Source: Planctomycetota bacterium (GTDB lineage Bacteria > Planctomycetota > UBA1135). Taken from it: DNA of 64,000 nt. Of this stretch, positions 32,189 to 42,091 are shown piece by piece. The notes beneath the pieces were generated by a model. The model was not told the DNA's origin. It searched no databases and was given only the letters and a program-made list of their open reading frames with translations. The first letter of the stretch is position 1; each line of letters begins with the position of its first letter. The stretch lies in the NCBI GenBank assembly GCA_004295085.1, contig SHNF01000009.1, positions 1 to 64,000 on the forward strand. Direction: 5' to 3'. The translations under genes were made by a program, and so were the position numbers.

Positions 32189-34596
<2,408 letters not shown>

Positions 34597-36585: not shown

Positions 36586-37197
36586 ATGCGGCACTGGCTC
36601 CTCATGGGCCTGGCGGCGGCCCTTCCAGCCTGTTCGGTCTACGACTCGCGATATCGCTTCGAGCCGCGGCCCTTGGAAGCCACCGCCACGACCACGGACG
36701 GCGCGGTCGTGGCGCGCGCCCTGGCGTCCGTGGTGGGCGTGCGCCGCGCCGACAGCGATGCCGGCAGGCCGGCGGAGGTGGAGGTGCGCATGCGCGTGGA
36801 GAACCCCGGCAGCGAGCCGCTGACCTTCCTCGCCGGCGCGACGCAGCTCTTCAGCGGCAGCCTGCAGCCGTTCGGAGCGCCGCGCGTGGAGCCTCCGGGA
36901 GGAGATCGGGAAGCCCCGCCCGGCGACGCCGCGGACGCGACTCTCTACTTCCCGCTGCCGGACGGAATGTCCCTGCGCGATATGGACCTGGAAGGCCTGG
37001 ACCTCCGCTGGGGCATCCGGCGTCCTGCCGGAGAGGTGGTCGCCCACGCCAGTTTCCAGCGCGTGCGCCACGATCCCTACGCCCACCACTATGGCTACTG
37101 GGGATTTGGCTCCTGGTCCAACCACGCCTACTGCGACCCGTGGTGCGCGCCCCGGCCGCCGCCGCCGCAGCACAGCAACGCCGGCGGAAAGCGCTAG
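36586..37197 (+). CDS. Predicted lipoprotein of unknown function
   Basis: 203 residues. The N-terminus (MRHWLLMGLAAALPAC) is a lipoprotein-type signal with Cys16. The middle (RPAEVEVRMRVENPGSEPLTF) has the look of an Ig-like/DUF1425-type domain, and the C-terminus is rich in Tyr, His, Trp and Pro (YAHHYGYWGFGSWSNHAYC). No family recognised with confidence. Its stop overlaps, tail to tail, with the end of the TGA-interrupted gene on the other strand. Confidence 0.7.
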   Translation: MRHWLLMGLAAALPACSVYDSRYRFEPRPLEATATTTDGAVVARALASVVGVRRADSDAGRPAEVEVRMRVENPGSEPLTFLAGATQLFSGSLQPFGAPRVEPPGGDREAPPGDAADATLYFPLPDGMSLRDMDLEGLDLRWGIRRPAGEVVAHASFQRVRHDPYAHHYGYWGFGSWSNHAYCDPWCAPRPPPPQHSNAGGKR

Positions 37198-38426
37198 GGC
37201 GGAGCAAGGAACCAGCGGAATCCGCCCACGTCGCTGAAGAACAGCCGCGCGCGGTTGCGCTCCAGCCAGGCGGCGTAGCCGGCGGCGGAGCGCGGAGCCT
37301 CCGCCGGGAGGTACTGCCGGAACAGCCGCAGGACCACGGCGTCGTCCGGGCCGCGCTCCTCCAGCAGGGTCGCCAGGCGCTCCAGGAGCTCGGGACGCCG
37401 GTTCGAGACCTGCAGGGCTGCGAGATCCGGGTCCGCCACGAAACCGAAGCCGCGCTCGGCCGGTTGCAGGTACTCCAGGTTCTGCTGGTAGTACTCCGCG
37501 AGCGGCGCGGCCTCCACTCCCAGCCGCGACAGGACCGCGTCCGGAAAGTACTTGCGCAGGGCACCGAGCTGGCTCGAGTCCGCGACGCCCTCGCCTTGCT
37601 GCGCCCGGCGCACGTAGGACACGTAGATCCCGGCCCATTCGCGCGAGCGGGCTTCGCGCCGCACCAGTGGCCGCGCGCCCTGGAAGCCGCGCATGTACAC
37701 CAGGACGTTCAGGAACACCGTGCGGCCGCTGGCCGTCATGTGCGCGGGATCCGCGGAAAACCCCCAGTAGAAGAAGTTGCCGTGCCGTCCCAGCGCCAGC
37801 GAGCGGTAGCTCTTGGAATTGATGCCGCTGGAGATCCATTCCGCGTCGGGCGAATCTTCGAAGCCGTACGGGTCGGCGATGGTGCCGCGGCTCACGATCG
37901 GCGACAGATCGGCCGCCTGCACGCGCCACACCGGCAGCCGTGCCGGCAGCCCGGCGCCGCCGGGCCAGTCGCGGTAATGCGCCGGAGTCTCGATCTCCGC
38001 GAGCTCGAGCTCCACGGGCAGCGGTCCCTGGAAGATCGGGTGGTCGAGGCGCATACCATGCGCCTCATTCAGCAGGCAGTTTCACAAGTACTCGAACTTC
38101 GCGCGCTGCGCCAGGGACGGCGCGACGCTGCCGAGCAGGACCAGCGGCTTGGCGAAATCCTCGCTCAGGGCGATCGCGGGCAGCTCTTCGAAGTCCTCCT
38201 CCACCTCCCAGTCCGCGATCGCGACGTCGTAGTCCGCGGCCGGCACCGCGCTGAGCTTGCGCAGGCCCACGCTGGACACGCTGTGGAAGTGGCCGCGGAG
38301 GAACTCGAGGAATGCGCCCGCGCGCGCGGAATCCGGCCGTCCCGCGTACAGGACGCGCAGCTCGTGCCAGTCCGCCGGCCCCGGAGCCTGCATCCCCGCA
38401 ACCACGCACAGCAACGCACTCAGCAT
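37194..38426 (-). CDS. Exported protein with one in-frame TGA; candidate selenoprotein
   Basis: Two frames, 38426-38082 and 38081-37194, are the same reading frame separated by a single TGA at codon 115. Together they encode 410 residues: a signal peptide (MLSALLCVVAGMQA), an N-terminal flavodoxin/ThuA-like half (RVLYAGRPDSARAGAFLEFL ... YDVAIADWEV), the sequence KFEYL-[TGA]-NCLLNEAHG, and then a C-terminal half (LDHPIFQGPL, GFEDSPDAEW, LALGRHGNFFYWGFS). The two halves read as one protein. A 9-bp hairpin with loop GGU starts 15 nt after the TGA. A GATAAT hexamer precedes the first ATG by 6 nt, while the second half has no promoter and only a weak Shine-Dalgarno. Alternatives are a nonsense mutation, a sequencing error or two coupled genes. 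Confidence 0.6.
38046..38066 (-). promoter_or_regulatory. SECIS-like hairpin downstream of in-frame TGA
   Basis: On the mRNA, nine perfect base pairs (GAGGCGCAU / AUGCGCCUC) enclose the loop GGU. The stem begins 15 nt and the loop 24 nt after the UGA. This meets the bacterial SECIS criteria of a small apical loop with an early G placed about 16-37 nt after the UGA. The hairpin lies within coding sequence. Confidence 0.55.
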
Positions 38427-38432
38427 GAACGC

Positions 38433-38438
38433 ATTATC
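38433..38438 (-). promoter_or_regulatory. -10 element of the TGA-containing gene (leaderless)
   Basis: GATAAT on the minus strand, 6 nt before the ATG at 38426. It overlaps the last codons of the upstream tonB gene. Confidence 0.45.
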
Positions 38439-39186
38439 CGCGATCCAGGCGGAAGCGGATCGGGACCACGATGTCGCCGGCGACGGCTTGGCCGTCGCGA
38501 TGCGCCGGCTCGAAACGCCAGCGCCGCACGGCTTCCAGCGCCGCCTGGTCGAGGACCGCGTGGCCCGAGGAGACCTCGATCTCGATCTCCTCAGGGGCGC
38601 CGGCGGCGGAAACAGAGACGAGCAGCTTCACCAGGCCTTCCTGGCCGCTACGCAGCGCCCTGGCCGGATAGTCCGGCGCCGGGCTGGAGCCTTGGAGCGG
38701 CCTTGGAGGCATGTATCCCGCCGCGCTCAGAGAGGCAAGAACGGGGCTGGCGGAAGCGGCCTGCAGCGGCGGCGCCTCGGCCAGGACGGCCTGGGCTGGG
38801 GGAGCGGCGGCCGCCGGCCGCGGCGGCAGCGCGCGGAAGCCTTCCGGGCGCGTGCTGCGCCGCGGCATCCAGCTCCAGGTGAGCGGAACCTCCACCTCGG
38901 CTTCCGGCTCGTACGCCAGCTCTGCCAGCACCGGCTCCGGCGCCAGCGAGGCTACGGTTTCCAGGCGGGCGGGGGCTTGCGGCGCAGCCAGGGCCACGGG
39001 CGCGGACAGGAGCGCCAGCTCCGGCGGAAGCCGGGAGCCGCCGCCACGCAGGTCGAAGCCGATCCAGAGCCCCGCCGCCACCAGGACGCCGTGCAGCGCA
39101 AGCGAGGCCGCCAGCGCCAGGGACCGCGTCCCCCACGGCCGCCTACAGGCGGGCCTGGACCGCGGGGCGGAGGCTGCGGCGGGCAT
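38434..39186 (-). CDS. tonB: TonB-family energy transducer
   Basis: Couples the proton-motive force to outer-membrane receptors. The 250-residue product has one N-terminal transmembrane helix (~22-46, SLALAASLALHGVLVAAGLW), a Pro/Ala-rich periplasmic linker and the C-terminal TonB domain (PDYPARALRSGQEGLVKLLVSVSAAG ... ALEAVRRWRFEPAHRDGQAV). It lies 20 bp after the receptor gene and is surely in the same operon. exbB/exbD are not in the window. Confidence 0.9.
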   Translation of the reverse strand: MPAAASAPRSRPACRRPWGTRSLALAASLALHGVLVAAGLWIGFDLRGGGSRLPPELALLSAPVALAAPQAPARLETVASLAPEPVLAELAYEPEAEVEVPLTWSWMPRRSTRPEGFRALPPRPAAAAPPAQAVLAEAPPLQAASASPVLASLSAAGYMPPRPLQGSSPAPDYPARALRSGQEGLVKLLVSVSAAGAPEEIEIEVSSGHAVLDQAALEAVRRWRFEPAHRDGQAVAGDIVVPIRFRLDRG

Positions 39187-39206
39187 GGACGGCTGCGGCG
39201 GCACTC

Positions 39207-41324
39207 TCAGAAGCTGATCTCTACGGTAGCAACGACGTTCCGGCCCGGGGCATTGAGGCCGGAGCCATGCACCCGGTAGTCCATGTCGGTCAGATTCTCT
39301 ACCGTCAGAGTAGCCCGCAGGTTCTCCCGAATATCCCATCCGCCGGTGATGCCGACCGAATAGAAGCCCGGGGTCCCCGTTGGCGGGATGCGCTGGGTGT
39401 CCACCTGGTCGCGCAGCGCCAGGTCGTCCTGGTTGTCCATGGCCCAGACCCAGCCCTCGACCCACTGCCGCGAGGCCGGCGGCTGCCAGTGCAGGGCGAA
39501 CGTGGCCTGCGCCGGCATCAGGCGGCTGACCGGCGCTTCCACGATCTGTCCGCCAGGCACGCTGAGGTCGAGCTGCTCCACCTCCCCGTCCATCCAGCTC
39601 GCGAAGATGTACGACGACCACACTTCGTTCCAGGGCCAGCGCAGCTCGCCTTCGATGCCGTGGATCCACCCGTCGCCGACGTTGGACTTCTCCACCACCG
39701 GGGTGCCGCCGACAAAGCCGCCGGTGGGCGACTGCACGATCATGTCCCGGATCCAGGTGCGGTACACCGCCGCCTGCCACTCGATGCCGCGCATGCGCCC
39801 CTTGTAACCGGCCTCGACCTGGACATAGTACTCGGGGTCCAGGCCGGTGGTCGGGACCTCGAAGGCGCTGGTCTCGTCGAACGTGGAGACGTCGGCCAGG
39901 CTGGGCGCGCGGAAACCCTGGGAGACGCCCGCGTACACGCTGGAGGCTTCGCCGAGGTGGTACAAGCCGCGCAGGCTGCCCACGGCGGCAGTCCAGTCAT
40001 CCTCGATCTGGATCACGCGCGGCCCGCCGGGATCGGGATTCTGCACGCGCCCGGCATCCACGGCGATGCTGGTGACGCGCACGCCCGGGATGACGCGGAA
40101 GCGCTCCAGGTCCAGCTCGTTCTGCACGTACGCGGCCAGGGTGGTGTACTCGGAGTCGTCGCCCACCGGGCCCTGGACCTGCGTCTGCGTCAGCACGCCG
40201 TCGACGTAGTCGTTGCGGAACGAGCTGATGGTCTCCTGATGCGCCTCGACGCCCCAGGACCACAGCCCCAGGCCCTCGCTCTGGAAGCGCGCGGTGAGCC
40301 CGAGATCGGAATCGGAAAAGCCTTCCAGGTCGCGGCGGCCGCCCGTGCGCAGCCGGTCGCGCTCCTCGTCGTGGCGCTGGAAGCTCAACGTGATCTCGCC
40401 GCCGTGGAACAGCCCGCCGGCCTCGTCCCAGCTCAGCCGGCCGTACACCAGGTCGCGGATCTGGTCCAGCTCGCGCCGCAGCTCGGTGCCGGCCACGGTG
40501 CCGTGGAAGGGCACGCTGAACACCGTGCTGTGCGTGCGCGGGACGTCCTGCTGGCGCACGGTCTGCCACGCGAACGTGAGCTGCATGCCGTTGGCCAGGT
40601 AGCCGTCGAAGCGCAGGTCGCCATCGCGCTCCTCGTAGGCGGTGTACGGCAGCGTCCCGTAGTCGCGGCCGGCCTCCAGGTCGTTGAAGTCCTTGACCGA
40701 CACTCCGCCCAGCAGGCCCCAGTCGGAGCCGGACGTCATCTCGAGCTCGGCGCGGCCGATCCAGCTGTCCTCGGCGCTGGCGTAGCGGCCGAACACGCCC
40801 CCGCCGACGCTGAGCGCGCCGCCCGCGGCGCCCGGTGCCGCGCGCCGCGTCACGGCGTTGACCGTGCCGCCGATGGCGTCGCTGCCGTACAGCACCGAGC
40901 TGGGGCCGCGCACCAGCTCCAGGCGGTCCACGCTCAGGGAGTCCACCGTGCTCCAGTACTGGTTGGGCCCCGAGCGCATGGCGGCGTGGTTGAGGCGCAC
41001 GCCGTCCACCAGCATGAGCGTGCTGTAGCCGGTGAAACCGCGGATGAACGGCGAAGCCTGGCCATGGCCCGTGCGCTGCACCATGACCGAGGGCAGGCCT
41101 TCCAGCGCGTCCGGCAGGGTGCGCGCGCGGCCGCGCAGCCGCTCTTCGCCGACCACGTCGATCGAGAACGGCAGGTCCAGCGGGTCCTCCTCCACCGTGG
41201 TGGCGGTGACCACCGTCTCCGGGATCTCCTGCGGCGCGGGACGCACGGCCGCGCCCGCATCCTGCGCCGGGACCGGTGCGCCCAGGAGCAGGACCGACAG
41301 AGTCGCGACCTCGGATCGGGCCAT
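39207..41324 (-). CDS. TonB-dependent outer-membrane receptor
   Basis: Outer-membrane active transporter for a siderophore, metal complex, vitamin or similar ligand. The 705-residue product has a signal peptide (VATLSVLLLGAPVPAQDA), a TonB box-like ETVVTATT, the plug domain (TLPDALEGLPSVMVQ, FIRGFTGYSTLMLVDGVRLN, VELVRGPSSVLYGSDAIGGTVN-type block) and a 22-strand barrel ending in the aromatic C-terminus VATVEISF. It is closest in layout to BtuB/FhuE-type receptors; the ligand is unknown. The downstream tonB gene is specific to it. Confidence 0.92.
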   Translation of the reverse strand: MARSEVATLSVLLLGAPVPAQDAGAAVRPAPQEIPETVVTATTVEEDPLDLPFSIDVVGEERLRGRARTLPDALEGLPSVMVQRTGHGQASPFIRGFTGYSTLMLVDGVRLNHAAMRSGPNQYWSTVDSLSVDRLELVRGPSSVLYGSDAIGGTVNAVTRRAAPGAAGGALSVGGGVFGRYASAEDSWIGRAELEMTSGSDWGLLGGVSVKDFNDLEAGRDYGTLPYTAYEERDGDLRFDGYLANGMQLTFAWQTVRQQDVPRTHSTVFSVPFHGTVAGTELRRELDQIRDLVYGRLSWDEAGGLFHGGEITLSFQRHDEERDRLRTGGRRDLEGFSDSDLGLTARFQSEGLGLWSWGVEAHQETISSFRNDYVDGVLTQTQVQGPVGDDSEYTTLAAYVQNELDLERFRVIPGVRVTSIAVDAGRVQNPDPGGPRVIQIEDDWTAAVGSLRGLYHLGEASSVYAGVSQGFRAPSLADVSTFDETSAFEVPTTGLDPEYYVQVEAGYKGRMRGIEWQAAVYRTWIRDMIVQSPTGGFVGGTPVVEKSNVGDGWIHGIEGELRWPWNEVWSSYIFASWMDGEVEQLDLSVPGGQIVEAPVSRLMPAQATFALHWQPPASRQWVEGWVWAMDNQDDLALRDQVDTQRIPPTGTPGFYSVGITGGWDIRENLRATLTVENLTDMDYRVHGSGLNAPGRNVVATVEISF

Positions 41325-41389
41325 GGGATGACGCACAACGGACGCTGCGCGCGCCGCGTTCACGAAAAAGCGGGGGCGTCCGGAACGTC

Positions 41390-42091
41390 TCAGTCCGGGC
41401 GCTGCGCCAGCAGCAGCGCCACGCCGCCGCGTCGCGGCGGCAGGCGGCGCTCCAGCCACTCGTAGCAGCCCGGACTGGGCAGCGGCAGCGGCGGGAAGCC
41501 CACCGCGTGCTCGCTGGCGAGCGCGCGCCAGCCGGCCTGGGCGGCCGCCTCCGTGAGCTCCTCCACGCTGAGGAAGCGACCGCGGTAATACGGCGCACGC
41601 GACAGCGGCCGCCGCCACCGGCGGCTGGTCTCCCAGAAGCCGGCGCGGTTCATGACGCCGAGCACGGCGCTGGCGCCCGGCGCGCTCACGCGGTGCAGCT
41701 CGCGCAGCGCCCGCGCACGGTCCGCGACAAACTCGAGGCAGTTCATGCACAGCACCAGGTCGGCGCAGCCGGACTGCAGCGGCAGTTGCTCGATCGAGCC
41801 GACCAGCACCCGCCCCGCCGGCCGGATCTCCTCCATCCTCCGGCGCGCCCACAGCGCCATGCTGGCGCTGCAGTCCACCGCCACGACTTCGCAGGCCGCC
41901 GGGATGAGGTCCAGGTAGTTCAGAGCCGGACCGCAGCCGATGTCGACAACCCGGCCGCGGGCGGCGCCCAGCCACGGCGCCAGCCGGCGGCGCACGCTGT
42001 GCACGAAAGCCCGCCCGAGCGGGCGCTGGCACCAGCGCAGGTAGGCCGGCTGGTCGGTCCAGCGCGAAGGAGTGGCGATCTCCGGGGTCAT
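41390..42091 (-). CDS. Class I SAM-dependent methyltransferase
   Basis: 233 residues. Motif I VVDIGCGPALNYLDLI is followed by VVAVDCSASMALWARRR, IEQLPLQSGCADLVLCMNCLEFV (UbiE/Methyltransf_11 type) and a long C-terminal part. No signal peptide. It lies 65 bp beyond the receptor start and 17 bp after the next gene, so it is probably co-transcribed with the latter. Substrate unknown. Confidence 0.82.
   Translation of the reverse strand: MTPEIATPSRWTDQPAYLRWCQRPLGRAFVHSVRRRLAPWLGAARGRVVDIGCGPALNYLDLIPAACEVVAVDCSASMALWARRRMEEIRPAGRVLVGSIEQLPLQSGCADLVLCMNCLEFVADRARALRELHRVSAPGASAVLGVMNRAGFWETSRRWRRPLSRAPYYRGRFLSVEELTEAAAQAGWRALASEHAVGFPPLPLPSPGCYEWLERRLPPRRGGVALLLAQRPD

Follow-up and report, generated by a model that had tools for sequence, protein, structure and literature searches.

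The window analyzed here is a stretch of 64,000 nucleotides from a bacterium of the Planctomycetota (contig SHNF01000009.1). On its minus strand lies a gene whose frame is open except for a single internal TGA at codon 115, and the question raised by this locus is whether that codon breaks the gene or is read as selenocysteine (Sec). The best explanation, to which we give a probability of roughly 0.85, is that this locus specifies an exported selenoprotein belonging to an unnamed, widespread family, likely a Sec-x-Cys oxidoreductase with DsbD/thioredoxin-like partners. Its parts are not equally firm. Sec insertion at the UGA is, on comparative evidence and without any experiment, very nearly certain, and a thiol/selenol redox role together with DsbD or thioredoxin-like partners is inferred and rather probable. 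The features of the locus are collected in Table 1.

Table 1. Coordinates of the putative selenoprotein gene, its elements, and the adjoining open reading frames within the window.
Feature	Position	Strand	Remarks
Predicted selenoprotein gene	37194..38426	(-)	410 aa with UGA read through; TAG stop
In-frame UGA, codon 115, predicted selenocysteine	38082..38084	(-)	TGA or Cys in homologues
Cys117, predicted Sec partner in U-x-C motif	38076..38078	(-)	invariant, 70/70 alignment rows
Putative bacterial SECIS hairpin, 9 bp, GGU loop	38046..38066	(-)	loop 24 nt past UGA
Probable signal peptide, about residues 1-18	38373..38426	(-)	hydrophobic N terminus in window protein and homologues
Predicted GATase1-like core domain, about residues 23-250	37677..38360	(-)	carries UxC and most invariant residues
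Predicted C-terminal, mostly helical domain, about residues 251-410	37197..37676	(-)	judged from the modelled secondary structure
ORF with TonB C-terminal domain	38434..39780	(-)	PF03544, 6.8e-24; immediately upstream on this strand; actual start likely more internal
ORF with TonB-dependent receptor	39207..42032	(-)	PF00593, 6e-37; PF07715, 9.4e-24; true start further in

An earlier note made from the sequence had described the gene as uninterrupted save for this TGA, in the local context KFEYL-[TGA]-N-C, and both statements are correct. Its view that the two halves form one protein is borne out by the Cys-containing homologues, which are continuous single proteins, and by a confident single-chain AlphaFold2 model. 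The assignment of a signal peptide is only probable, as it rests on the hydrophobic N terminus and on low pLDDT values rather than on a predictor. The stop codon of tonB (38434-38436) is followed after 7 nt by the ATG of the gene, and tonB itself comes after the ORF of the TonB-dependent receptor. The GATAAT that had been taken for a -10 element belonging to the 5' part is in fact the stop-codon region of tonB. Because this motif overlaps the end of tonB, 7 nt before the ATG, co-transcription is the simpler reading; an operon with tonB accounts better for the arrangement, and no separate promoter is needed.

With the read-through product as query, matches occur in 31 of the 154 genomes of the class. 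Each of these class homologues that spans codon 115 carries TGA there, among them a paralogue encoded by the same genome (C1:813674-814915, 49% identity). The motif around Sec in the class is W-L-U-x-C-L in most members (W-L-U-x-C-[LM] overall), and subfamilies exhibit H-H-G-U-L-C-L, G-Y-I-U-I-C-M, or G-U-T-C-L. Searching the whole phylum brought in further TGA forms together with a single natural Cys form (locus L071, R-D-F-C-V-C-L). In the contigs of named public genomes, a single-protein query found no relatives; an alignment query found 135, of which 80 loci were kept, 15 with TGA, 64 with Cys, and 1 not covering the site. Herein, none of the 79 covering loci has a residue other than Sec or Cys, which settles the alignment check proposed in the earlier note: the position is TGA or Cys and nothing else. 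The Cys forms come from Bacteroidota, from Isosphaeraceae and other Planctomycetota, from a gammaproteobacterial metagenome-assembled genome (MAG), and from a MAG labelled Paenibacillus. The last of these (L163) shows a Bacteroidota-type SusC-SusD operon, and its protein is placed among Prevotella/Odoribacter sequences, so that this genome is, as judged from its sequence, probably mis-binned or mislabelled. A tree built by a quick method, from an alignment without the Sec column, requires Sec and Cys to have interchanged at least four times, and one planctomycete TGA clade is nested among Bacteroidota Cys forms. Distant homologues of the core without UxC were also seen, at the N-terminal end of open frames of ~900-1100 aa (L078 and L079, genomes G066 and G005).

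Downstream of the UGA, the nine-pair hairpin with a GGU loop is present as had been described, starting 15 nt after the TGA with a free energy of -15.8 kcal/mol. Compared with dinucleotide shuffles, its stability corresponds to z = -3.4, and none of 200 shuffles is as stable. The bacterial SECIS model demands a loop of 3-9 nt with a G in the first two positions, a spacing of 16-37 nt, and a minimum free energy of -7.5 or below (PMC13188914), and the window hairpin fulfills it with its GGU loop, its spacing of 24 nt, and its energy. This hairpin alone, however, is only mildly unusual in such a GC-rich gene as the present one: when its synonymous codons were randomized, about 5% of draws had a hairpin of at least 9 bp within the SECIS zone. 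Hence, the lone hairpin was dropped as proof of a SECIS, and the comparative signal was used instead. For this, 32 TGA genes were aligned, with shuffling and sliding of the pairing partners by 1-3 columns as controls. The nine-pair stem is paired in 78% of cells (60% when shuffled), the covariation score is 0.384 (0.127 when shuffled and at most 0.148 with slid partners), and changes on both sides occur at seven of the nine pairs. Independently, RNAalifold recovers five pairs of this stem, four of them with compensatory changes. The central pairs are formed at 6.0 of 7 in the 42 Sec forms as opposed to 2.8 of 7 in the 64 Cys forms; the four Cys forms from planctomycetes, within this very phylum, keep 2, 4, 5, and 3 of 7. 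In the region of the hairpin, -7.5 kcal/mol is attained by 40 of the 42 Sec forms, and some TGA forms have bulged or weaker hairpins (e.g., L070, L082, L069, and L092). The conservation of the hairpin, a second check that had been proposed, is thus met by compensatory changes in TGA forms and by loss of the stem in Cys forms. Taken on this comparative basis, the data lift the putative SECIS above chance, which the lone hairpin does not.

The absence of visible sel genes from the window had been conceded as a weakness, and it is removed by what the genome encodes elsewhere, namely SelA (C6:259411-260496, 2.8e-114), a tRNA-Sec near selA (C6:261729-261821, 71 bits), SelB above cut-off (C5:372676-373743), and SelD (C6:260731 onward; L043:6732). 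SelD itself has an in-frame TGA (..YASCAG-U-AAKVPQ..) and a hairpin GGCGCAG-GUU-CUGCGCC, which shares GGCGCA/UGCGCC with the window hairpin. Within the window, the sole other GGCGCA-N5-TGCGCC stem lies at 34395-34411. SelA is found in 144 of the 154 genomes of the class; in a further check, it is present in all 12 genomes except G135 (73% complete), these including the Cys-form genome G494. The genome of the TGA form L092 also has SelA. Among 32 Bacteroidota genomes with Cys forms, there is no strong SelA match and one weak, partial match of 37 bits.

The AlphaFold2 model of the read-through product has a pLDDT of 92.6 and a pTM of 0.91, with low pLDDT at residues 1-20. In a Foldseek search against the PDB, the matches are GATase1-type domains of GMP synthases, the best being 2a9v (E 1.8e-6; TM 0.57 by target and 0.31 by query). 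These two TM values indicate that about half of the protein is GATase1-like and that the C-terminal helical part is unmatched; the protein is hence predicted to consist of a GATase1-like domain and a helical domain. All fold matches shown are of GATase type, and no thioredoxin fold is among them. Residues invariant over 70 rows include U115, C117, W167, and W221, as well as the polar residues K110, H129, E196, K205, R214, N217, and N240. As to the nucleophile-elbow Cys with a His-Glu triad that marks class I glutamine amidotransferases, the residues after the expected elbow strand (about 95-103) lie outside the conserved columns, as judged without residue-level superposition. The earlier assignment to a ThuA/flavodoxin-like type stands only in part: the predicted fold is GATase1-like, and ThuA identity by Pfam is rejected, since no Pfam family matches the window protein at E <= 1, ThuA (PF06283) and DsbD_N (PF11412) included. 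Among the Pfam and NCBIfam models (June 2026), none exceeds its cut-off for the core domain, whether the window protein or selected Sec and Cys representatives are scanned; five Sec-type members gave no NCBIfam family at all, and Cys members gave only weak matches below cut-off. Likewise, sequence-profile comparison with PDB chains gives no convincing match for the core.

A redox function is suggested by the partners of the family. The N-terminal (alpha) domain of DsbD is fused C-terminally, fused N-terminally, or encoded nearby in homologues. Pfam DsbD_N (PF11412) is detected in several members (1.5e-6, 1.7e-12, 1.9e-6, and 1.8e-6), and with a profile built here, a DsbD-alpha-like domain is found in the same protein or locus at 96 of 123 loci, some of them duplicate records of a single gene. 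The DsbD_N cysteines C617 and C622 are invariant in a 40-row alignment. A second AlphaFold2 model, that of a DsbD-fused homologue, shows both domains joined by a low-confidence linker (pLDDT 89.6, pTM 0.72). The window protein and its subclade lack this domain in cis; a DsbD with DsbD_N and DsbD_TM is encoded elsewhere in the same genome (C2:127773-128114, L166) and is a candidate electron donor. The same DsbD shows an apparent second DsbD-alpha-like copy (GWHLYHP...CTESLCNP). In one planctomycete gene (L047:5030-7484 (+), the same gene as L018), the UxC core, DsbD-alpha, and a redoxin domain form one protein, and the redoxin domain has a second in-frame TGA (FWGDW-U-PPC), making it a candidate double selenoprotein. 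In Bacteroidota, the Cys-form gene (L096-L165) typically stands after SusC and SusD and before genes for a TlpA/AhpC-type protein, a thioredoxin, or an M16 peptidase, often with FecR/ECF regulators nearby. Some of these loci contain tandem copies (e.g., L099), and L097 also contains a full DsbD. No conserved neighbours were found in the Planctomycetota loci inspected, in a look that was not systematic.

At the level of sequence, the comparisons demonstrate Sec at position 115, a conserved, putatively resolving Cys117, a SECIS that looks functional, and a partnership with DsbD/thioredoxin that recurs across the family. In the mechanism proposed, SelB and tRNA-Sec decode the UGA at codon 115 as Sec under the guidance of the downstream hairpin, for which the evidence is comparative and not experimental. 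By inference, the protein would be exported to the periplasm, where Sec would attack an oxidized substrate, as yet unknown, and Cys117 would resolve the intermediate by forming a Se-S bridge. This bridge may then be reduced by a DsbD-alpha-type domain or by a TlpA/redoxin-type thioredoxin fed through DsbD. That the substrate is imported by the neighbouring TonB-dependent receptor is a weak inference.

A narrower proposal, which refines this explanation rather than opposing it, is that of a selenoenzyme acting on a specific TonB-imported small molecule, such as an oxidized sulfur or selenium compound, with DsbD and thioredoxins merely recharging it. The many invariant polar residues besides UxC argue for a specific substrate and suggest a chemistry more specific than generic disulfide exchange, and the Bacteroidota genes lie after SusC/SusD in company with TlpA and M16 peptidase genes. 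Against this, no substrate or ligand is known, and the window receptor stays below the cut-off of every specific NCBIfam receptor model, the nearest being TIGR01785 (heme/hemoglobin receptor); the proposal remains tentative. Alternatively, the protein could be a selenoprotein in which the Sec-x-Cys pair coordinates a metal or metalloid, assisted by conserved His, Glu, or Lys, and does not undergo redox cycling. A short UxC/CxC motif accompanied by several invariant polar residues would suit such a role, as would the adjoining TonB-dependent receptor in the window. The repeated occurrence of DsbD-alpha, full DsbD, TlpA, and thioredoxin as fused or adjacent partners, and the redoxin-domain fusion with its second in-frame TGA, point instead to electron transfer, and the transporters in Bacteroidota are of the SusC/SusD type, usually for organic substrates. 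Metal binding is therefore unlikely and, set against a redox role, the less likely of the two but still open.

Decoding of the UGA as something other than Sec, be it as Cys via a dedicated tRNA, as Trp, or by simple readthrough, cannot be formally refuted in that the amino acid is unprovable from sequence alone. It is nonetheless highly improbable in view of the full Sec machinery in the genome, the covarying SECIS that is lost in Cys forms, Cys as the only alternative residue, and the TGA at the homologous position of SelD in the same genome. A sequencing error, a pseudogene, or two separate proteins, the second initiated anew at ATG 38054 (an ATG-started ORF 37194-38054 does exist), can be rejected with near certainty, because the TGA is kept by the paralogue and across dozens of independent genomes, over identities from 49% down to about 26%, and because the Cys homologues are continuous and the single-chain model is confident.

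An Sec-decoding reading of the gene places it beside known selenoproteins, of which 119 prokaryotic families and subfamilies were catalogued in 2026; no entry matches the window family by domain or motif context (PMC13188914). With the catalogued bacterial selenoproteins it shares the UGA, the hairpin whose loop has a G within its first two positions, the 16-37 nt spacing, the SelA/SelB/SelD/tRNA-Sec set, and the occurrence of Sec/Cys pairs, and it differs by a core that is not thioredoxin-like in the fold search. The new families found by Deep-Sep include a glutamine amidotransferase related to CTP synthase (PMC12013277), whose motif is GxUxG (PMC13188914). This CTP synthase C-terminal region-related selenoprotein (NF004836) has a related GATase1-type fold, whereas the window protein carries W-L-U-x-C-L on a strand and has no NCBIfam match. 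ThuA-like and class I glutamine amidotransferase-like proteins share the predicted fold; the window protein adds the C-terminal helical domain and the UxC pair, without a Pfam match. The selenoproteins TsoA (NF045695, LULAXC), with its L-U-L motif, and TsoB (NF045694, rhodanese/DsbD fusion), with its DsbD-like part, come close in single features, and neither model matches any core-domain member scanned. The identities TsoA, TsoB, and Sec glutamine amidotransferase were thus rejected. In open-access full text, with subscription papers and preprints not covered, no description of selenoproteins with DsbD or of a matching planctomycete selenoprotein was found. The earlier statement that no described selenoprotein family of this type is known agrees with the catalogue, NCBIfam, and Pfam, and we regard the system as ordinary Sec decoding that operates in a protein family which is new and whose fold and set of partners are unusual.

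For the prokaryotic selenoproteins, the finding means a well-supported additional family, in Planctomycetota, whose TGA genes standard gene calling truncates or splits. For a domain that lacks a Pfam or NCBIfam model, a clear pair of active-site residues now emerges, together with a probable source of electrons. It is possible, if rather doubtful at present, that the family founds a class of envelope selenoenzymes with a GATase1-like fold, in which a DsbD-recharged Sec-x-Cys pair acts on a specific compound imported via TonB-dependent or SusCD systems; if true, this would be a redox step in nutrient processing that was not previously known. Since SusC/SusD operons of Bacteroidota from gut, soil, and sea repeatedly include the Cys form, the function may be tested in ordinary laboratory strains without selenium machinery.
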